The notes under the pieces are model-generated. The model saw only the letters and a list, made by a program, of their open reading frames with translations, was not told where the DNA came from and did not search any database. Positions 10,980 through 58,204 of a DNA stretch of 64,000 nucleotides are shown in pieces (the first letter of the stretch is position 1; every line of letters begins with the position of its first letter). The DNA comes from Anadara kagoshimensis (taxonomy: Eukaryota; Mollusca; Bivalvia; Arcoida; Arcidae), in NCBI GenBank assembly GCA_021292105.1, contig CM037874.1:17156615-17220614 (forward strand). The letters run 5' to 3'. Position numbers and translations under genes: made by a program.

Positions 10980-11240
10980 TGGTCCCGGTTTCACAATCAT
11001 TCCCTAGCTAAGATTTTCCTAAACTTAAATCTTGCAAAATTTCAAATCTTTATATAATTTTGTTAGTTTTCAAGATATTTAGGAATTTAAGGTGTTATTT
11101 TTAAGATCATTTCTAGATTAAACATCTGCATTAAGTTTTGACAAAAATATTCACCAGTAGTTCCAAAATGTGATTAACAAAATTTGCTAAATTTAAGTTA
11201 AGGAAAATGTTAGCTAAGGAATGATTGTGAAACCGGGGCT
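10980..11240. mobile_element. MITE of the CCGGTTTCACAATCATTCC family
   Basis: About 50-bp inverted ends: CCGGTTTCACAATCATTCCC at the left, and GGAATGATTGTGAAACCGGG at the right. Relatives near 12563 (one end), 26740 and 56390/58120. Confidence 0.8.
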
Positions 11241-12562: not shown

Positions 12563-12612
12563 CTTCAGTTTCACAAACATTCCTTAATCAAGACTTTCCT
12601 TAACTTGAATTT
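12563..12612 (+). mobile_element. Single end of a CCGGTTTCACAATCATTCC-type MITE
   Basis: TTTCACAAACATTCCTTAAT and ACTTTCCTTAACTTGAATTT match the left end at 10980. No right end was seen before the ribozyme at 12703. Confidence 0.55.
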
Positions 12613-12702
12613 AGAAAACTTTGTCATTCTCTTTTAGAACAATCAAAGTCATTGAATTAGGAACATGAGCAAATTACATACTATACCAGTTTTATATTTA
12701 CA

Positions 12703-12746
12703 GCACTAGACGGCCGTTTCGGAATACAATTCCTCATCAGTAGCGC
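12703..12746 (-). ncRNA. Type I hammerhead self-cleaving ribozyme
   Basis: Read 5'-3' on the minus strand, the order is: stem I 5' strand GCGCTA; core CTGATGA; stem II GGAAT-TGT-ATTCC (5 bp, loop TGT); core GAAA; a short self-complementary stem III ACGGCCGT; cleavage triplet GTC; and stem I 3' strand TAGTGC. Stem I pairs fully with one G-T wobble and gains an A-T pair outward. All invariant core positions (C3 U4 G5 A6, G8 A9, G12 A13 A14, A15.1-U16.1, C17) are present. Predicted cleavage lies between 12709 and 12708. Very short stem III with an open stem I is the type I form of metazoan retrozymes, Penelope-like elements and some satellites. No reverse transcriptase and no second copy was found nearby. 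Confidence 0.82.
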
Positions 12747-12759
12747 TTGGACCAAAATT

Positions 12760-14930
12760 AGGAAACCAAAATTATTTTGAAGATGTTGAAAAGCTACCCA
12801 AAGGAAACTAACTCGGTTTAACGATATACACATCTCGTATGTATATGTTGATACTTTGTAACAAGCTTGTTTCGTGACATAGTGCTTCATAGTTTTGGAG
12901 AATTAGCGCAGACAAGAATTTCGGATGGACAGAAGGACGGAAACTGGAATTTAATTCCCAATCTCTCTTTGAAAGGCAGGGGCTAATAACGAAGGTTTTT
13001 TTTCAATAAGAGTGATCATGAAACTAGAACCGTTGTTGATTCTATAGTTTAAACCTCGGCATGATGTTTGTTACCAAGGAAACAGACTTGTTTTAGTATG
13101 ATGACATAATACCATGTGTTAAGCTTTAAAGTGTGTTACAATATTTCACTACACTAAATAACATTTGAAATAGTGTAAAATACGAATATTGGCATATGAG
13201 AAACATACAGAATTAAAAAAGAAAGCTATTTGTTATTTGGGTGCCAGCAAGTGTCAAGTGCTATTTTTTTGCTTTTTGTTTATGAAATTAATTTTTAGTA
13301 TTCCAAAAATTAAAAATTATTAGCATATGACAAAGTACAAAATTAAAAAAAATTAAAAATAATAAAAGTTTGGGTAATTTGGGTGTCAACAAGTTCAAAG
13401 TGGTAATTTTTGTCTTTTTAAAATTAATTACAGAAATTTAAAAATTTTGAGTCGTATGGGTGTAAACAAATACCCTTAAAATGGAGAACTGTTTATCACT
13501 TAGTGCTTGGTCAGGCTTGCAATATAGCTTATATTGTGTTTAATAAATAAACGTTAGGTCTAGTGAAAACCCTTGCAGGCAAAGAAGCAGAGATTATATA
13601 AAGAGTGGATTTCATAAGATTTATATTAATGGGGCATGTATAAAAACTATTAGCCCAAACAACCGTTTGTCTTGAATATTGAGAACAATCTCAAATAATA
13701 CACATGTCAATTTCAATCAACGTCTTCAAATATAAATAAAGCAACCTGAAACCAAAGGCCAAGATTTATTTTTTAAAAAAAATCAATTTTGGCGAGTTGA
13801 AATCAGCAAGGCATTTCTGAAATTGCATATATATACATAATTTTTTAGACTTGAAGATATATACACATTTCTTTGCGTGCGTAACGCAATTTATATCTTG
13901 ATTCTTATTGATTATTTCAAACTTTCATTATTTGTCATCAGTTTCGTTGCAAATAAAACTATTTTTGGAGTCTACTTTATTATGGTCCCTTTACGTTTTA
14001 CGTATTAACATATTGCATGATTGTCTTCAATTTTAGAATTGAGAAATGTTTTGTTCAAAAATTAAAAAATATAGGTGAAGGTATTGGTTTTCAATATTTA
14101 CAAAAATTTGAAACGTTTAAAATAACGTCAAATTAACATTTTTGTCTATTTATACAATAGACAAAATAGTTGCATAATGGTTTACATATATAACAAAAAA
14201 CACGTTTTTATACATTTGTGCTATTTCGCTGTCCATTATAAATACTGACATTGCATGTGCTTGTTCTGGAATAAACCAACATATGTGAAAGAAATCATTC
14301 TTTTGTTTGGTTATACATTGTAAGGAAATATCAACACATATAAATACGTACAAAATAATATCAAGTCATAACTGAGCATTTCATCATCCGTAACCCATTG
14401 CAACATTTGTACTCTGACGTCATAATTATTGCTGGAAACATATTTCAAAAATAATATTAAGTAATCACTTAGAATATACAGTTAGTACGTCTCGTCATGT
14501 GATCAACGTGAACTAGCCATTTCCAGATGCAAAAGCAATGGGCGTGGTTAGAAACCGCATAAAGTTACGTCACCACCTGCCGTAACGAACGGCAACGTTT
14601 TTTTCTCTGACGTCAAAATACTGGAAATACTTTCAAAATCATATAAAAATTCAAACGAGACTGTAAAACCTTATCCCTGCAATGTGTGCAGAATTTAATT
14701 TTTATAAAGGAAAATATAAATATTTCTCTAGATTTATTTCAATTTCTATGCACAAAACATAACCCTCGTAACAAAATACATAAATATTGCATAGAGACAA
14801 TAAGATTTAATTTCCGGTAGGTATCTCATAGTGGTTAAAAACGATATCCCAGTTAAAAATGTCATACAAAATTGCATACTAATATAATATGCATTGTAAA
14901 CCTGATGTTTTAAGTAAAAATGTAAGATAC
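12760..14930. other. Intergenic AT-rich DNA downstream of the Kv gene
   Basis: Two tandem ~131-bp units lie at about 13190-13450 (GGCATATGAGAAACATACAG and AGCATATGACAAAGTACAAA starts, both followed by TTGGGTGNCAACAAGT-like text). Otherwise nothing was recognised. Confidence 0.5.
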
Positions 14931-15938: not shown

Positions 15939-17002
15939 TTACACTTTATTAAAATTACCATCCATGGAATGATTCGGACTTTCACATACTGCATCGTTTT
16001 CGTTTTCAACATCTCTACAATCTTCACTAACGTTAGTTTGTAGAGTTTCCTCCATATTGTCCTTATCCTCCTTATCTTCAGTGTCTTCAACAATGATCAC
16101 GTGTTCGTCCTCAACATGGGACAGCATCTTGGACTTGTCCCGGTCATATTGGACCATTCCATACTGCACATGCGTATAATATAACACAAAATTACTGACA
16201 ATGATAGGCACTGTAAATGCAATCATTAATAATCCAGATATTGCACAAATGGATCCTATAATGTATCCAGCAAAGGTTTTTGGAAACATGTCGCCATAAC
16301 CTACCGTTGTCATGGTAACAACACTCCACCAAAATCCGATTGGTATATTATCGTAAACTTCACTTTCTGCAAAATGCATGAGCGACGCAAAAACTACCAT
16401 TCCGATTAACAAGAATACAAACATTAACATAAGCTCATTAACACTAGCTTTCAAAGTATAAAGTAAAATCCATAATCCTGGAACATGGCGGATCAACCGG
16501 AAGATCCTACATAATCTGAGCATGCGCAGAATAAGTATAAAATCTACGAATGGCAGTGCTTCTCTTTCAGACGGATCGACAGCTTGCAATATAAATGTAA
16601 CGTAATCAGGAACAATGGCGACAAAATCTATAATATTCTGCAAAGCAGTGATAAACTGAAACTTCCTCGGGCAAAAAATGAAACGTGCTAAGAATTCTAA
16701 AGAGAAATAAGAAACACACAAGATCATGATCAAAAGTGCTGGGTGTGTCACCCATTCCGTCTGTTTAGTTCCATTTGTTGGTATTTGTAGTGTTGTGATG
16801 TTAATTGAGGTATTGGAATGGACATTTGGGTTGAAGATGAAGTCATTGCAGTGTCTGTAGATTTCTCATCCAGCACAAAAACGTTGTATAAAACATCAAA
16901 TCCCCCTACCGAATCTGCTTTAACATGGAACAACGGATGTGTCTCCGCACAAAATGAAAATATGGAAAACAACACAAAAGCAATGGACACCCAGGCATAT
17001 AC
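15939..17002 (-). CDS. Kv channel 3' coding exon: S1-S6, pore and C-terminus (frame-shifted)
   Basis: Terminal coding exon of a voltage-gated K+ channel alpha subunit (plasma membrane, tetrameric K+ pore). An acceptor (polypyrimidine then TTTTTAG) precedes 17002, and the first codons read VYAWVSIAFVLFSIFSFCAE, which is S1. The second frame gives S2 (VSYFSLEFLARFIFCP, keeping the Phe and Glu of the gating-charge centre), S3 with NIIDFVAIVP, S4 with five Arg at every third residue (RMLRLCRIFRLIR), an S4-S5 linker, S5, and the pore helix and filter NIPIGFWWSVVTMTTVGYGD. S6 follows with TVPIIVSNF, then an acidic C-terminal tail ending at a TAA. The pore run and linker fit Shaw/Kv3 best. Compared with vertebrate Kv3, the outermost S4 Arg is Leu and the usual Lys is Arg. 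S1 and S2 lie in different frames: the first frame stops at 16750..16748 and the second is open only below about 16868. Length modulo 3 fits one missing base or two extra. The family call is secure; intactness is not. Confidence 0.93.
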
Positions 17003-24128: not shown

Positions 24129-24690
24129 CAGAAAAAATAATGAAAATGAAAAAAAATATACAAAAATTATTCAATAAATAAAAACAGAAATTATTTTTAA
24201 AATAACACCATAAATAATTATAAATTACTACCAGTAAACCTTGTGTGTACGTGTTTTTTATGTAACAGGTACTTACTTATTTACATTACGACTTTCGTGT
24301 CGTTTGAGCAAATTTATCCCGTTTTCTTTTAGAATTTAAATAGTTTACTAGGATGATGAATTGCAAATGAAGGTGATTTAACTATCAATTAAAGAACGTT
24401 TTTCTTGCTTCTTCTTTTTCAATATTTAAAAGCTGGACAATTGAAATAGGGAACCTCTCTCTTGTTCTGAATTTTTTTCACTCATCAAATATGTATATTT
24501 TGCTCCGAGCTGAATGTACGTGTAAATGCATCCAACTGTAATGATTTTGCATTGATTTCATCGAATGTCGCAAACAAATAAATCATTATTAGCTAATGAC
24601 ATTGAACAATACCAAAGCAATGATTTTTTGACAGAAAAATATTAAATATTAGAACTCTTAACTACAGTAAACAAATACACAAGTGCTTAC

Positions 24691-25509
24691 CTTCGCACCA
24701 CATGATGAATTTGGATTCTGTAAAAAGTTCCAAACACATGCTCTACAACGTCTCCAACAGTTTGAACTTTGTCTGTCTTTTTCCAGATCTTTTTGTGTTG
24801 TTGAGCGTTTTCGATCATGTTCCAATTTTTCTAGAGACCGATTTTGTGTTTTCCACGTGTTATATGGCTGCCAACAACATCGTTCAATATCCATCTCGTC
24901 GATTCCCCAATATTTAAATTCATTTTGTACAGCAGGACCACATAGATACGTCGGTAAATGTAATTCCCCGGTTCTAAGATAATTTAAAACAACACTAAAA
25001 ACTTGGGGGTCTCGATCAAAAAAATAATCATTTGGACTTTCTCTGTAGTAACGTTTCATTTCTGATTCTCGCGATAATTTAAACGATTTTAATCTCTTTA
25101 ATGTGGATTTATAGGTTTCAAAAATCTGACCCCCGACATTTAACTTCACCGTCTCTCTATTTCTTTGAATACTTTGAGGTCTATTATTTCCATGGAATTC
25201 CAACTCGTCTGAATTTCGTCTGCTTCCAGGTGCTCTGTATCCCCCGCCGCCTGAACAAACAACCGCGCTAAACGCCATATTGCCTGATTCTGACTGATCA
25301 GGTTGCTGTTTACAATATGCCGTCTGCTCTCGCTGTTCACACCCGTTATCATCTACCTCGTTCCATTTAATACAATTATCACGTTCAGCTGGATCGCCAT
25401 CCTCGGAATCGGAAGCTGTTGCGAGTAATTTTGTTTGACAAATTCCAGTTGATTTTCGCCTTTTTCCATTATCACCAACGGCCTGAGGTAGAGAGGTTCT
25501 TCTTGTCTG
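24691..25509 (-). CDS. Kv channel exon: N-terminal region and T1 (BTB) domain
   Basis: Internal coding exon of the same channel. About 130 N-terminal residues are low-complexity, polar and rich in Ser, Gly and Asp. The T1 tetramerisation domain then begins at VKLNVGGQIFETYKSTLKRL and runs through YFFDRDPQVFSVVLNYLRTG. The segment from the His of ELHLPTYLCG to ERCCW fits the HX5CX20CC zinc-site spacing of non-Shaker (Shab, Shaw, Shal) channels. The exon ends RACVWNFLQNPNSSCGAK, then the donor AAG|GTAAGC. Joined in phase 0 to the exon at 17002 this gives SSCGAK-VYAWVSIAF, the normal T1-to-S1 transition. At the 5' edge a pyrimidine tract ends CTCAGCAG, a tandem (NAGNAG) acceptor, so the exon starts at 25509 or 25506. 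The upstream in-frame MNFYIF reads through the pyrimidine tract and is probably intronic. An internal Met (MAFSAVV) could start a shorter form. Confidence 0.93.
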
Positions 25510-26083
25510 CTGAGAGAAAGGGAAAATATAAAAATTCATAGTTTAAAAATTCCAAAATATAAGTAAACTCCATAAAAAATGGCAATAAATTAAGATACTA
25601 TATCATATCTGTAGATAGTTTGAACATTAATATCATAATTTGGATAGTATCTTAAAGAACGTTGATCTTGCATCTGGTATCTTACAAAAGAATACTATAT
25701 TGGAAATGATTTGGACGTGAATTACTGTCATTTTCCATTTGTGTGGTAGAAAAGTAAGTTTAGTAGAGCTATGAGTATATACACGAAATTATGATATGTC
25801 ACAAATAATATTTGCTAACACATAGTACATAGGAGAGAAATAGAAATGAGTATATGCCAACTTTTATAATACCTAAGTTTGACAGGGAATTCTGCCGAAA
25901 ACAAAAATGTTACACCATAACAAATTATCTCTGCTTATATCGCGTCTTACAAATAATAACTAACAAACACATTTATATAGTTCTACCAGATACATCATCA
26001 ACTGTTTCCACAACACAACATCTGTACATTTTTCTGAACGTGTGATATAGCCATCGTTTTCGGAAAACATTTCGGATTACAGT

Positions 26084-34070: not shown

Positions 34071-35764
34071 AACCCCACAACTCGTAAAAAATAACAAATC
34101 GTTAGACTAAAAGAAAATGATAATAAACTGTTAAACTTATACCTACTTATAAAGACTATTATTTCAGCACAGGTTCCATCATTGGACATTTACATGCATG
34201 TTCTACTGTAATCGTTGTTTATACAGGGTATGTTGTGTGCTCTAGCCCACCTGGCCTCGGTTTTGTAAAAGACACTGGCGTTACGTTGTAACAACTGTAC
34301 AACATGCACTGTCATGTTTTTGTAATCTTTTAATTTCAGGATTTTGTCACAGTAATCTCTTATTTCTGCGAAAGACTTCGCGATCTCTTAATGCATGCTA
34401 ATTTCTTTATTGAATAATTTCCACTAATCGCATTAGCATATCCTTGTATTGGAGATAAACCCCAACCACCCACCTCCGCCCCAATAAATCTTGTTTTTGA
34501 TAGTCCGTATGCTTTACAAATCATGAAAATCATGTGGTTCAGAACTCGTATATATATTGAGAAGGTTTAATACTTTGTCCGCCTAGAAATAAACATGTAT
34601 TGCTTTCAATAAAATGAAAAATGAACAATGAAAAAGTATTACACTCAGCTTTAAGAAAAACATCGCGCACTGCGATATTTTCAAAATCATTGCAATTTCG
34701 TTTGCCTTTTCTGAAATAAAGAAAAGCGCTTCCATATTTTAAAACTAGTACTGCTGTTTTATTTTAGCCTTACTTAAGTTCTACAATGAATCCATTTTTT
34801 TTTTATTTGTTAAAACCTTGTCATTCGAAAATACGGCAGTATTATTCAGATTATATGGCGAGTTGAAAAGTTGTTAAATATGGCTGTTAGTTGTCGAAAC
34901 TTTGAAAAAAAAACTAAATAGAAAATTTGTCAATATTGACCATCAAGTTTTCTTTTCGCCTTTTCTTTAATTCGTGAACCAGAAAAAAAAACAAAACGAA
35001 ATCAGTAAACTAGCAAAACAAAACAAAATAGTAAAAACTAAAAAAAAAACTAATCTAAAAATCTAAAAAAATTATTTATTAACAAAAGATCAAAATAGCG
35101 TTTATAACGAAATTTTTCTATTTGTATTCTGTCAAAAAATAAACAAAAAACCCTCAAAATTTGCGAAATTAACCATAATCAAAATTGAGTCGTTTTCGCA
35201 GTCAAAAAATTAAAATGTATTATGATGCAATAACTTTGAAGGTAGTATCTCTAATGTTTTCACCAAAACAAATTGATTGTATTTGGTATAAAAGTTCATA
35301 GAATAAAAGTTAAAAAGGGCTTTTGATTTAATATCATAATTTCTTAAATACATTCATGTGGTGCTTAACTTGTGGTCAAGTGTATACACGCATAATTACC
35401 CTCATATATCATTATGGATATGTATGCATAGTATTATGTTACCTCATGTGCCACCTCCAGTGGTGTTAAGCAAATGAATTTGAATTTGGCACTTGAAAAT
35501 TTTCGAGTTTCATCATTAACGCCCTCATCGTTCAGTGTCATCACCTTATTTCAAAGTTATTGTGTCCGCAACCTCATAGACTTCTTGAGAAATTTGTTAA
35601 AAATATTTTACTCCAGAAAGTTTTCATTGATAATGGTGGTATGTTTGGGTGACCGTGACTTGGACATCTCCGGATTCATAGTGTCCTGACGATTTTCACC
35701 GTACATATGAGAAATGAACGGAAGGTAGGTAGGAAAAGTGATGTCATTAGGTCAAGTTACTCAA

Positions 35765-45060: not shown

Positions 45061-46902
45061 CAAGAGGCCCATGGGCCTTAACGCTCACCTGTGACCTTTG
45101 AACCCATGAGCTTCATTTAAATATCAAAATGATAATTAGGCCAATATTCTAATATACATCCCTATACAAAAAGTTTATAGTTTTTTAGATAAATAATCAT
45201 CTCAGTACTTGTTTGTATCTGTGATCTTGACATTTGAACCCATGCCCTTCATTCATATATCAAAATGACCACTGTGCCAGTACCAACAATATTCTAATAT
45301 ACATGCCTATACAAAAAGTTAATAGTTTTCAAGATAATTAACCATTTAGGTATTCATTCGCATCTGTGACCTTGACCTTTGAATCCATGACCTTCATTCA
45401 TATATCAAAATGATGGTTGTTAGGCTAATACCTACAATATTCTAATATACATGCATATATACAAAAAGTTAACAGTTTTCAAGATAATTAACCATTCAGG
45501 TATTCATTCACATCTCTGACCTTGACCTTTAAACCCATGATCTTCATTCATATATCAAAATGATCATTAGGATAATACCTAAATATTCTAATATACATGC
45601 CTATACAAAAGGTTTATAGTTTTTGAGATAAATAATCATTTCAGAACTTGTTCACATCTGTGACCTTGACCTTTGAACCCATAACCTTCATTTATATATC
45701 AAAATGGTTGTTAGGCTAATACCTACAATATTCTAATATACATGCATATATACAAAAAGTTAACAGTTTTCAAGATAATTAACCATTCAGGTATTCATTC
45801 ACATCTCTGACCTTGACCTTTGAACCCATGACCTTCATTCATATATCAAAATGATGGTTGTTAGGCTAATACCTACAATATTCTAATATACATGCATATA
45901 TACAAAAAGTTAACAGTTTTCAAGATAATTAACCATTCAGGTATTCATTCACATCTCTGACCTTGACCTTTGAACCCATGACCTTCATTCATATATCAAA
46001 ATGATCGTTAGGATAATACCTAAAATATTCTAATATACATCCCTATACAAAAAGTCTATAGTTTTTGAGATAAATAATCATTTCAGTACTTGTTTACATC
46101 TGTGACCTTGACCTTTGAACTCATGACCTTTATTTGTATATCAAAATGACCATTGGGCCATTACCTACAATATTCTTATATACATGCCTATACAAAAGTT
46201 CATAGTTTTGCAGATAATTAACTATTTTGGTAAACTTGTACATCTGTGACCTTGACCTTTGAACCCATGACCTTAATCGATATATCAAAATGATCGTCAT
46301 GTCAATACCTACAATTAACCAAAAATCCTACGTCATTATCACCAGAAATGTTTAAAAAATAGCATTTTTTATCAAAGGTCAAAAACTGGGACATGACCTT
46401 GACCTTTGACCTTGACATCAATTGGAAGAAAATCGCAAGACAAGATCAACAGTGAAAACTCCATACAATTATCTTTAGCCATTATGAAGTTATGACAATA
46501 AATGTCTCATTTTAAAAATTACATAATTTTACGCAAAAAACGCGTAACCTATTTTTCGTCGAATTTTCATGAAAAACACAATTTTAATGTGTCTAGGTAT
46601 CCTGAATCCAAAAATCTAATCAAAATTTGTCTGCACCTTTTGGTTTCAGAGAAAAAGATTTTTTTGTCTTTTGGCTATTTATAGTAACGGCAGCCATATT
46701 GTTGGGCGTGGTCAAACCCCGAACACAATTTTGAAAGCCTGTTACCCAGGCATAATAATCACCAAGTTTCATTAAATTTGGCTCAGTAGTTTTGGAGGAG
46801 AAGATTAAAATGTAAAGTTTACGCACGACGCACGACGGACGACGGACGACGGACGGTGATAGATAGCAATAGCTCATATGAGCCTTTCGGCTCAGGTGAG
46901 CT
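45061..46902 (+). mobile_element. Helentron-like satellite-bearing element, copy A
   Basis: Begins CAAGAGGCCCATGGGCC with GCTCACCTG about 21 bases in, and ends in a hairpin (stem GAGCC/GGCTC) plus CAGGTGAGCT. The inner 5' GCTCACCTG and terminal 3' CAGGTGAGC are an asymmetric inverted pair, as described for Helentron/Helitron2 ends. The core is about nine copies of a 145-150-bp unit containing TGACCTTGACCTTTGAACCC. A non-repeated part (46310-46860) precedes the 3' end, with a short GACGACG run. No ORF of note. It sits between TTTAAAA and AAAAAGTCG of the host minisatellite with no clear target duplication. Confidence 0.65.
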
Positions 46903-47030: not shown

Positions 47031-49357
47031 CAAGAGGCCCATGGGCCTGATACGCTCACCTGATAACTAATGGCTAGCTGATAGATTTAAAGAAAACATA
47101 AATACTAAACCCCAATGACTTTTTTTTTACATCATGATAACCGTTGTATTAATACCTACAACATTCTAGTATACATGCCTATACAAAAAGTTAATAGTTT
47201 TCAAGATAATTAACCATTTCAGTATTGTTTTACATCTGTGACCTTGACCTTTGAACCCAAGACCTTTTTCTATACATCAAAATGATCGTTGTATCGATAC
47301 CTACAACATTCTAATATACATGCCTATACAAAATGTTTATAGTTTTCGAGATAATTAAACATTTCGGTATTGTTTCGCATATGTGACCTTGACCTTTAAA
47401 CCCATAACCTTTTTCTATAAATCAAAATGATTGTTGTATCAATATCTACAACATTCTAATATACATGCCTATACAAAAAGTTTATAGTTTTGGAGATAAT
47501 TAACCATTTCGGTATTGTTTTGCATCTGTGGCCTTGACCTTTGAACCCATGACCTTTTTCTATACATCAAAATGATCATTGTATCAATACCTACAACATT
47601 CTAATATACAAGCCTATACAAAAAGTTGATAGATTTTGAGATAATTAACCATTTCGGTATCGTTTCACATCTGTGACCTTGACCTTTGAACCCATCACCT
47701 TTTTCTATACATCAGAATGATCGTTGTATCAATACCTACAACATTCTAATATACATGCCTATACAAAAAGTTTATAGTTTTCAAGATAATTAACCATTTC
47801 AGTATTGTTTTGCATCTGTGACCTTGACCTTTGAACCCATGACCTTTTTCTATACATCAAAATGATCGTTGTATCAATACCTACAACATTCTAATATACA
47901 TGCCTATACAAAAAGTTTATAGTTTTCGAGATAATTAACCATTTCGGTATTGTTTCACATCTGTGACCTTGACCTTTAAACCCATGACCTTTTTCTATAC
48001 ATCAAAATGATCATTGTATCAATACCTACAACATTCTAATATACATGCCTATACAAAATGTTTATAGTTTTCGAGATAATTAACCATTTCGGTATTGTTT
48101 CGCGTCTGTGACCTTGACCTTTGAACCCATGACCTTTTTCTATACATCAAAATGATCGTTGTTTCAATACTTACAACATTCTAATATACATGCCTATACA
48201 AAAAGTTTATAGTTTTCGAGATAATTAACCATTTCAGTATTGTTTCACATCTGTGACCTTGACCTTTGAACCCATGACCTTTTTCTATACATCAAAATGA
48301 TCGTTGTATCAATACCTACAACATTCTAATATACATGCCTATACAAAAAGTTTATAGTTTTCGAGATAATTAACCATTTCAGTATTGTTTCACATCTGTG
48401 ACCTTGACCTTTGAACCCATGACCTTTTTCTATACATCAAAATGATCATTGTATTGATACCTACAACATTCTAATATACATGCCTATACAAAAAGTTTAT
48501 AGTTTTCGAGATAATTAACAATTTCGGTATTGTTTCGCATCTGTGACCTTGACCTTTGAACCCATGACCTTTTTCTATACATCAAAATGATCGTTGTATC
48601 AATACCTACAACATTCTAATATACATGCCTATACAAAAAGTTTATAGTTTTCGAGATAATTAACCATTTCGGTATTGTTTCACATCTGTGACCTTGACCT
48701 TTGAACCCATGACCTTTTTCTATACATCAAAATGATCGTTGTATCAATACCTACAACATTCTAATATACATGCCTATACAAAAAGTTTATAGTTTTCGAG
48801 ATAATAATTATAATCAGAGGTAAAAAAAATTAGGTCACGACCTTCACAATTGACCTTGACCTCATTTTGAAGATACTAACAAGAAGATGTCAAAACTGCA
48901 AACCCCATGTCATTGTCTGGTCAAATAGTCAAGTTATAACAATTTGAAGCTATTTTACGATTTTTTCAAAATTAAACGCAAAAACGCGTAACCTATTTTT
49001 TATCCGATTTTTACAAAATGAACAAACTATAGGCTTAAGACCCTAGAGAAGCCAAATATCACATCAGATTTTTTCTCCAATCAGTACTTTCGGAGAAGAA
49101 GATTTTTTAAGATTTTTGCACCCCTAGGTCACCTTGACCTAGTTATGGTAGCCATGGCAACGCCACGAACAAATCTGAATTGCACCGGCCCATATATACT
49201 TCTGACAAAGTTTCATTAAAAACTGTCCAGTAGTTTCAGAGGAGAAGTCGAAAATAGGTGTTAACGACGCACACACGCACACACGCACACACGCACACAC
49301 GCACATACACACGCTGCGCTATGCCATAAGCTCACATGACCTTCGGTCAGGTGAGCT
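47031..49357 (+). mobile_element. Helentron-like satellite-bearing element, copy B
   Basis: Same ends as the copy at 45061: CAAGAGGCCCATGGGCC at the start, and the hairpin TGACC-TTC-GGTCA inside CTCAC/GTGAG arms ending CAGGTGAGCT. The core has 11 copies of an exactly 145-bp unit, with GTG of the CTGTGACCTTGACC motif at 47238, 47383, 47528 and so on to 48688. A non-repeated 3' part contains a CACACG microsatellite (about 49270-49310). The hairpin sequence differs from copy A but pairing is kept by paired changes. Non-coding. Confidence 0.65.
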
Positions 49358-52606: not shown

Positions 52607-53195
52607 GGCTACTCGGAACAAATTACTTTATCGTTTCGAAACTTCTCGGACGGCATCCTTAATGTTCATAACGGTTCGCCTAGCTGAAGAGGAAAATCCG
52701 AGCAGACGTTTGTTTGTAAACAATGAAAGGGGCGAGAGAGTGATGAATTCTCTCGCAAATAGATTGCTAGATTTGGGCGGCTTAATAGAACGACAGACCA
52801 TGGACAGAGAAACGCCTGACAGAAGCACGCATGAATTTATAGAAAAAATGCGAAACCCCAACACAGTAAGGAAAACAAATTCGGACATAAACTAATTCCG
52901 TACCTGGCTTGCAACAAGAAATGAAACCAGGGAAATCGAAGAATTGAGCGCACCATTAGCAACATTTTTTATGACGGCTGTAAAGAACGATGGCAGCGAA
53001 TACGAGCCTGATACTATGAAATTTATGCAAACTAGTATCTGCCGTTATTTGAAGCAGAAAGAATATGTGATAGATATAATGGAAGGCCGAGAATTCTCAC
53101 ACTTAAGAGAAGTGTTAGCGTCAAAACGGAAGTGTCTCAGACAACAGGGGAAAGGAAATAGAACTAAACAGGCAGATCCACCCAAGAAGAAATAA
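52593..53195 (+). pseudogene. Crypton-derived recombinase-like (DUF3504-type) fragment with an in-frame stop
   Basis: One reading frame runs for 201 codons with a single TAA at 52893..52895. The part after the stop reads FRTWLATRNETREIEELS, then TFFMTAVKNDGSEYEPDTMK, a Cys/Arg/Tyr helix (SICRYLKQKEY), EFSHLREVLASKRK and RQQGKGN. This is the pattern of the N-terminal SAM-like domain in KIAA1958/ZMYM/QRICH1-like proteins derived from Crypton tyrosine recombinases (recognised from memory of the family). The part before the stop (ending RKTNSDIN) continues naturally into it, so the stop looks like a recent nonsense change. The frame ends in a Lys-rich tail with no catalytic recombinase domain. 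Local GC content is higher than in neighbouring DNA. A palindrome cluster lies just upstream and a 28-bp inverted repeat just downstream. Confidence 0.6.
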
Positions 53196-56387: not shown

Positions 56388-56445
56388 GACAGTGTTTCAC
56401 AATAATTTCTTAACTAAGATATTCCTAAATCTTATTTTTTTATTA
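56388..56445 (+). mobile_element. Left end of a CCGGTTTCACAATCATTCC-type MITE
   Basis: GTGTTTCACAATAATTTCTT, then AACTAAGATATTCCTAAATC. A right-end-like piece is at 58095-58135 (GAAATGATTGTAAAACAGGG), probably from a different copy. Confidence 0.5.
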
Positions 56446-56849: not shown

Positions 56850-57940
56850 GCATGTGAATATAATGATATTGAAACAAATTGCACGTCTGTGTTGCTACTT
56901 AATACATTTGCCTTTACTTAATAGTATTCTAGCTGAATTTTAGGTTAAAATGTCGAGTTAATTCTGTTGAGGGTTGAATATTACCTCTAATATAGCTTAT
57001 AATTATTTTATTTCTGACTTGAGAGAAACCAGATCCAGGAACTTTATTGACTTTTAACATTAGCGTGATGTACAGCCCTGAAGTGAATACTTATATAATA
57101 TATATAACTTCACTGCATTTATTAAAAATCGAAGATTGTGCATATTGGTATTACTATAGTGAAAAAAATTATCTTACAGATATCATGTGATATCTTCATT
57201 TTTTAGTTAAATTGTTGTTTTGATCGATTTAATTGCATTTTAAAAAAGATCTTAACACATGAAGCAGAAAACAGAATAAAATTGTTTGACCGAGTTTTAG
57301 GTCAACATATGGTATGTTGGATCCTTGGATTAAACTGCTGCCCGATACCCCATGCAAGACAGCAATGTTGCCACGTAATGTTGACCAAGCGGCCAACATC
57401 GTAATATGGACCGGTCAACATTTTGTCTTTGAGGCCATTTGAAATACTGGACTTTGTCTTTATTGGTTTATATAGGGAGTAATTTATAAATGTCTTAGAA
57501 AATTTAAAATATATTAATCTAACTTTACTTGTAAAGACAATTTTTCTACAGTTTATGTTAAGTCCTGAGCATTTACTTCTAAATAATTCGTATTGCATCA
57601 TACAGGTGTTATATATGTAGCTGTTCAATTTTACTCCAACTGACGTAATACTATCTATGTACTGTACTTTAGACTTATTGTCGTTATTTTATTGGTATCA
57701 CAAATATTAAAAACATTCTTCTAGTGTGTCAATAATAGTTAATACAAGGAAACTGTAAAAATAACGATACACATGTAGCATTACGTCACGATTTATGTTT
57801 AAATACATTATATAAATATACGAAATAAAATGATTTTATTACTTAGTCAAACAAAATTTGCACAATCATAATTCTAAGTTAAACATCGTTTATAAAGCTG
57901 CAAGATGCTACTCTATAGTTATTTGGACATCGGGATAATT
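56850..57940. other. Intergenic, nothing recognised
   Basis: AT-rich, no supported gene. Confidence 0.5.
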
Positions 57941-58204
57941 CTTTTAATTACTTTGTCATTTTAAAGATATTCAGAAATTTAAGATGTCATTTTGAAGGTC
58001 AACTCAAACTTATAAAATCTGTATTTATTTTTTGTCAAAAACGATAATTCATTGTTCCACATAAGATTGCCAAATTAGCTAAAAACATTATGGAATTTTC
58101 GTATTTGAGAAATGATTGTAAAACAGGGGTCAGATATTGCAATGTAATCTATACAATAGACTATTTGTAGGCTAAAATGCATTTCCATGATCATCTCGAA
58201 CTAC

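Follow-up and report, generated by a model that had tools for sequence, protein, structure and literature searches.

An ark clam hammerhead ribozyme very probably marks a truncated retrozyme copy from a family with one fixed 3′ end

A stretch of 64,000 nucleotides from the genome of the ark clam Anadara kagoshimensis, referred to here as the window, carries on its minus strand a short segment that an earlier note had read as a hammerhead ribozyme. Such a segment raises the question of what kind of element it belongs to and how that element came to lie there. We consider it very probable that the motif is the ribozyme of a 5′-truncated, stranded copy of a non-LTR retrozyme whose family is copied from a fixed site located 35-37 nt past the ribozyme cleavage site.

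The claim of an intact type I hammerhead on the minus strand holds, with all the named parts present. The interval originally assigned to it, 12703..12746, had the right location but was one base short at each end, the true span being as follows:

12702..12747, minus strand: type I hammerhead ribozyme, identified by core scan and pairing, with a weak Rfam Hammerhead_1 match

Read along the minus strand, the 5′ arm of stem I (AGCGCTA, 12747-12741) is followed by the core CTGATGA (12740-12734), a stem II of 5 bp with a UGU loop (GGAAT/TGT/ATTCC, 12733-12721), GAAA (12720-12717), stem III (AC(GGCC)GT, 12717-12710), the triplet GTC (12711-12709) and the 3′ arm of stem I (TAGTGCT, 12708-12702). Every conserved core base is in place, together with three helices in type I order, and cleavage is predicted between 12709 and 12708. 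Stem I has 7 pairs, one of which is G.U owing to a difference at 12744, where the family majority has A. Stem III is formed by the self-complementary ACGGCCGT, which can be drawn either as 2 pairs closing a palindromic GGCC loop or as an 8-bp intermolecular helix.

A descriptor scan of both strands of the window retrieved the copy at 12747-12702 as the sole full hammerhead, in agreement with the earlier statement that no other full-core copy lies within the window; the laxest descriptor setting also passed two weak plus-strand rows near 35682, with stems II and III of 2 bp each. Since a stricter descriptor found no hammerheads in 300 first-order Markov sequences of 64 kb each, scanned on both strands, the motif is not a chance match. 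The hammerhead covariance models, proposed as a check, returned a match only below their own cut-off. The Rfam search of the window at the gathering score missed the hammerhead, the search of a 501-base stretch up to E 10 showed none, and a search limited to 71 bases gave a misregistered Hammerhead_1 match of 17.9 bits, with the gathering score set at 34. When the same model was applied to four loci with sister copies, one copy from locus L001 scored 28.1 bits, and the other three loci gave nothing up to E 1. The 34-bit threshold is a matter of scoring and not of structure, and the identification rests on core and pairing. Free folding of the hammerhead stretch was no better than that of shuffled sequences (z -0.58), and no convincing excess of stem covariation was observed in 76 copies, with 19 to 90 of 500 shuffles equalling or exceeding the observed values.

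The ribozyme is embedded in a longer, sharp-edged block of homology that extends from 12805 to about 12671:

12671..12805, minus strand: 5′-truncated retrozyme copy of 135 bp, delimited by matches to family loci

This copy, the only strong retrozyme match within the window, matched 30 of the 30 first loci (some of which overlap each other) with up to 97.8% identity. The best match began at 12805 in 25 of the 30 loci, and most matches finished at 12668-12682. When 101 columns were compared with the majority of the sample, the copy differed in 5 (5%), an average divergence that ranks 35th among 76 copies; its differences at 12696 and 12695 are common to six of the 76, itself included.

The clam's own genome (1.115 Gb in 36 contigs, with the window on contig C18) was searched for relatives. 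The first search found no family member among the 73 of 112716 candidates that were scored, and DNA patterns were used thereafter. The earlier note had named an absence of genomic copies with common flanks as part of what would refute it; a core pattern that left stem II and the stem III loop free retrieved 7108 matches genome-wide, against 0 for the reversed pattern, and the exact 18-nt tail retrieved 6691. A 32-nt hairpin located at the opposite end of the unit had 590 exact matches, several of them in like arrays. Tandem copies, which the note had suggested looking for, are part of the family: head-to-tail arrays are spaced at 338-339 bp, and other neighbouring pairs are 325-378 bp apart. 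The reference unit (L001:1571-1909) is 339 bp long with a GC content of 33.9%, and its longest stop-free frame, with the unit written twice, comprises 83 aa. As is typical of animal non-LTR retrozymes, GC content is thus below 50% and there is no protein frame; a second such trait, a ribozyme located within tandem units of about 150-450 bp, is seen in the family, though not in the window copy itself. The family is a new, ark-clam-type bivalve member of the non-LTR retrozymes already known in animals.

Penelope-like elements, which the earlier note had named alongside retrozymes, carry minimal type I hammerheads as well (PMC7761336), and the motif could in principle be the pseudo-LTR ribozyme of such an element. 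We regard this as highly improbable. The unit of about 339 bp, its frames not exceeding 83 aa, lacks the reverse transcriptase/GIY-YIG frame of a Penelope-like element. Minimal ribozymes of such elements lack stem III or loop interactions; the ribozyme here has a stem III of 2 bp with a 4-nt loop, and an outer helix beyond stem I is present in the family majority. Queries with a single Penelope-like protein from the clam genome and with six relatives of it gave no match in the window or in the loci searched, a result that covers these seven proteins. Of the two alternatives, the retrozyme appears the better fit.

A pattern for hammerheads devoid of stem III, with the core followed by GAAACGTC, was found at 174 genome sites, compared with 6 for its reversed form. 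Since most of the sites listed bear the stem II of the retrozyme family, no separate Penelope-type ribozyme family showed up. Most of them resemble the family ribozyme with 4 stem III bases lost, perhaps by recurrent deletion of the palindrome.

The ends of copies were measured against a real genomic two-unit stretch in a sample that was drawn from 100 of the 7108 core places, all on contig C1. From these, 94 places in 90 loci were taken; of the six left out, five are in an apparent repeat of an earlier stretch and one closes the list. Seven loci were excluded for overlap, and 88 islands, including that of the window, were reduced to 76 by removing 3 that were cut by an edge and 9 duplicates, some of which shared the 3′ flank only. 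The 75 non-window copies are all located on contig C1, between 0.31 and 13.74 Mb. On the same contig, like ribozyme variants with their flanks occur in the same order at about 11.81-12.44 Mb and 12.70-13.23 Mb, about 0.9 Mb apart, as with the pairs L075/L086 and L081/L087; this suggests that a large segment has been duplicated or that a second haplotype was retained.

The sampled copies have a fixed 3′ end and scattered 5′ ends, and some are multimers. When ends were grouped in bins of 12 nt, 60 of the 76 3′ ends fell into a single bin about 35-37 nt beyond the cleavage site, whereas 5′ ends came to at most 9 of the 76 in any bin. With up to 2 mismatches allowed, a terminal motif, TATAATATGTAA, was recognised no further than 90 nt from the cut in 60 of the 76 copies and in 1 of 75 in the flanks further on; it ended exactly 35 nt past the cut in 52 of the 60. 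The other 16 copies had no motif recognisable at this mismatch limit. The base that follows the motif was T in 41 of 51 cases, and a second T came next in 38 of 51. The window copy has its own version of the motif:

12672..12685, minus strand: terminal motif at the 3′ end of family copies, represented in the window copy by TATAGTATGTAATT; putative start of reverse transcription, 35-37 nt beyond the cut

Aligned ends no more than 3 nt from the cleavage site were seen in 3 of 76 copies, though the search pattern required nothing past the cut. Near the unit start there was one 5′ end (1/76), and near the previous cleavage site there were none (0/76). Copy length was below one unit in 61 of 76 and at least 339 bp in 15, and the multimers continue across the unit junction in head-to-tail order. 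The distances copied were compared with simple fall-off models; since the KS p values were 0.047 against an exponential and 0.050 against a uniform distribution, we claim neither form.

Two control sets were selected without the ribozyme core. Twenty places that contained the tail and had no core match, taken from roughly 60 listed, were all retrozyme; some had decayed ribozymes, and three were junctions inside longer copies. Even the shortest matches in this set, of 26 and 28 nt, had the same end, although the selection itself accounts for 18 nt of each. The second set was selected by the 5′ hairpin, located about 237 nt before the ribozyme, and its 20 single places (which include L127 and L128, with a common upstream flank) were likewise all retrozyme. 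In nineteen of these 20 units the end lies between phases 333 and 4, and the remaining one overruns its piece; 15 of 20 reach back into the preceding unit. Since tail-selected and hairpin-selected copies agree, the fixed 3′ end is not an artefact of ribozyme-based selection.

True tandem arrays with a spacing of 338-339 are what one would expect of a plain satellite, in which tandem repeats arise via unequal exchange and single copies are scattered debris. Debris of this kind should, by inference, break randomly on both sides, yet the 61 of 76 sampled copies that are under one unit in length have one 3′ end and scattered 5′ ends. We therefore think a plain satellite very unlikely.

The pattern of ends instead suggests that circular or multimeric RNA is reverse transcribed from a single, fixed internal position. 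A linear monomer released by self-cleavage would end at the cut site, and a fixed 3′ terminus further on argues against such a template. Since almost no sampled copy ends at the cut, the template was intact or had been rejoined across it. We infer that the template is circular, that synthesis is primed at the target and that the enzyme is Penelope-like, and envisage the following course of events. Transcripts of tandem units would cut themselves at each hammerhead, and the cut RNAs would be closed into circles; circular RNAs have been demonstrated in other animals, and a host ligase has been proposed in print. A reverse transcriptase from another element would supply the copying, which would start at the fixed site 35-37 nt past the cleavage site. 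The enzyme would then follow the circle or multimer until it dissociates, leaving copies with one 3′ end and any 5′ end, some longer than the unit. In the case of the window copy, copying would have stopped after about 135 nt.

Circular RNA has the merit of accounting at once for the fixed entry point, the scatter of 5′ ends and the copies that run through. Taken by itself, a fixed 3′ end is also compatible with a linear template, either one with a set 3′ end, as in many SINEs, or an uncleaved multimer. Since 5′ ends do not pile up at the unit start (1/76) and 15 of the 20 hairpin-selected units run into the unit before, a linear RNA of one unit whose 5′ end is set is an unlikely template, and the head-to-tail passage of multimers through the unit junction speaks against it as well. 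Nothing here proves a circle, however, and uncleaved multimeric transcripts remain compatible with the data. Unprocessed RNA was the main substrate of the Penelope-like enzyme of Anolis, and dead ribozymes were without effect on insertion in vitro (PMC11167929); circles are thus not required by that precedent. Overall, we judge a linear template rather than a ribozyme-made circle unlikely, though it keeps a fair share of our doubt.

Target-site duplications, which in animal retrozymes are longer than 4 bp when present (PMC7229834), were not evident in the sample, since words common to both flanks were hardly more frequent than in re-paired flanks. The sole outlier, a word of 32 nt common to both flanks at L011, was dropped, as the insertion lies within a local tandem repeat.

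The earlier note had proposed a relic or an active non-autonomous retroelement. The relic part is borne out by the 135-bp 5′-truncated copy and by the family with shared flanks, while the active part is not, the copy being single and truncated. In the published model a second ribozyme is required for release of a circle; since the window copy has just one, it should be unable to make circular RNA alone and could do no more than cleave transcripts passing through it. As a single 5′-truncated copy it should not be active as an element, and the locus itself is ordinary debris. The remark that such ribozymes often work as dimers need not apply here, as most invertebrate ribozymes of this kind cut efficiently, and it is the amphibian ones that need dimers (PMC7229834).

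The ribozyme does lie downstream of a channel gene and on the same strand, as had been noted, and potassium-channel domains were found upstream of it:

15942..16865, minus strand: frame for the membrane part of a voltage-gated potassium channel, the upstream neighbour (Ion_trans, 114 bits)
24661..25542, minus strand: potassium channel frame with a BTB_2 (T1) domain (BTB_2, 86 bits)

The first frame is 90% identical, over 95%, to a protein of Tegillarca granosa (Arcidae), and the second probably belongs to the same gene. With an intact ribozyme on the channel's strand, about 3.2 kb past the stop codon of the frame, one might suppose that the copy has been recruited for self-cleavage of the channel transcript in its 3′ part. 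We find this extremely unlikely: the divergence of the copy is average for the sample, eight hexamers resembling poly(A) signals precede it, and the genome contains thousands of like copies.

Several other features of the window were recorded. Within the channel coding frame, Rfam K_chan_RES matches 16191-16304 on the minus strand (67.9 bits, against a gathering score of 51), which is probably coding homology and possibly an RNA-editing site. About 30 nt from the retrozyme copy lies the end of an apparently unrelated element:

12568..12640, strand not assigned: end of an inverted-repeat (MITE-like) element, found also at about 10984-11237 and 26738-26965

Members of this MITE-like family measure about 250 bp and have inverted ends about 59 bp long; the family is also represented at 57937-58129 and 56394-56439. 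A 145-bp tandem repeat forms two arrays, at 45142-46315 (8 copies, 84% match) and 47115-48805 (11.7 copies, 94%). The plus-strand frame at 52896-53192 has a weak QRICH1 match (28.6 bits, with a cut-off of 30.8) and is perhaps a remnant of a mobile element.

No autonomous partner was found among the 20 tail-selected and 20 hairpin-selected places, all of which were retrozyme. Penelope-like elements do occur in the genome, where GIY-YIG frames had at least 50 matches among the 150 of 248 candidates scored. One locus, L111, has an open frame of 762 aa with reverse transcriptase and GIY-YIG domains, and its protein had 3342 relatives among the candidates scored, some of them named from Mytilus, Pinctada and Saccostrea. 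Three reverse transcriptases in these searches (P0122, P0124 and P0148) are filed under bacteria that are gill symbionts of Solemya velum, possibly through contamination by the host clam. The 4 kb read at L111, the one Penelope-like copy read, showed neither the shared tail nor, by the lax descriptor, a hammerhead, so that L111 is at most a candidate for the partner.

A 2020 review describes animal retrozymes as devoid of a conserved motif that would betray the mobilising element (PMC7761336). A shared 3′ terminus set near the ribozyme, combined with free 5′ ends, is such a handle: it locates the start of reverse transcription and can be tested against candidate enzymes. Among the matches listed in the literature, titles and abstract openings mentioned no fixed reverse transcription start in animal retrozymes and no retrozyme in ark clams. 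Tentatively, and with more doubt than confidence, we suggest that animal retrozymes may be mobilised by a Penelope-like enzyme that opens at the fixed site 35-37 nt past the cut and runs round a closed circle, the structured stretch just past that site serving as the enzyme's handle.

Among known systems, plant LTR retrozymes share the name, the hammerheads and circular RNA with the family described here, but have type III ribozymes, LTRs and larger units (PMC7229834). Closer by host is the non-LTR retrozyme of the Mediterranean mussel, Mytilus galloprovincialis, with a type I hammerhead, about 5000 ribozyme copies and usually repeats of about 350-390 bp (PMC7229834). The ark clam family likewise has thousands of copies and units of a few hundred bp in a bivalve host; its unit is about 339 bp, the comparison being one of published descriptions, and a fixed 3′ end is described for it here. 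Coral and salamander retrozymes, too, have type I hammerheads and form tandem repeats of two or more units, but these units are of about 220-240 bp in coral and of 330 and 350 bp in axolotl, where one class has a weaker stem III (PMC7229834).

The Poseidon element of Anolis resembles the family in its tandem and partial tandem copies, its hammerhead and its AT-rich sites with ATT (PMC11167929). The purified Anolis Penelope-like protein prefers AT-rich DNA with ATT, and genomic copies end where reverse transcription starts (PMC11167929). Penelope-like elements, unlike the retrozyme, encode their enzyme, and the Poseidon ribozyme is dispensable for insertion in vitro (PMC11167929). The likeness is close and is the ground for the reading of Penelope mobilisation, short of a proof: in Poseidon reverse transcription starts within the RNA, downstream of the ribozyme and some 85-92 nt from the cut, as derived from the numbers in the paper (PMC11167929), and in the ark clam family it would start 35-37 nt from the cut.
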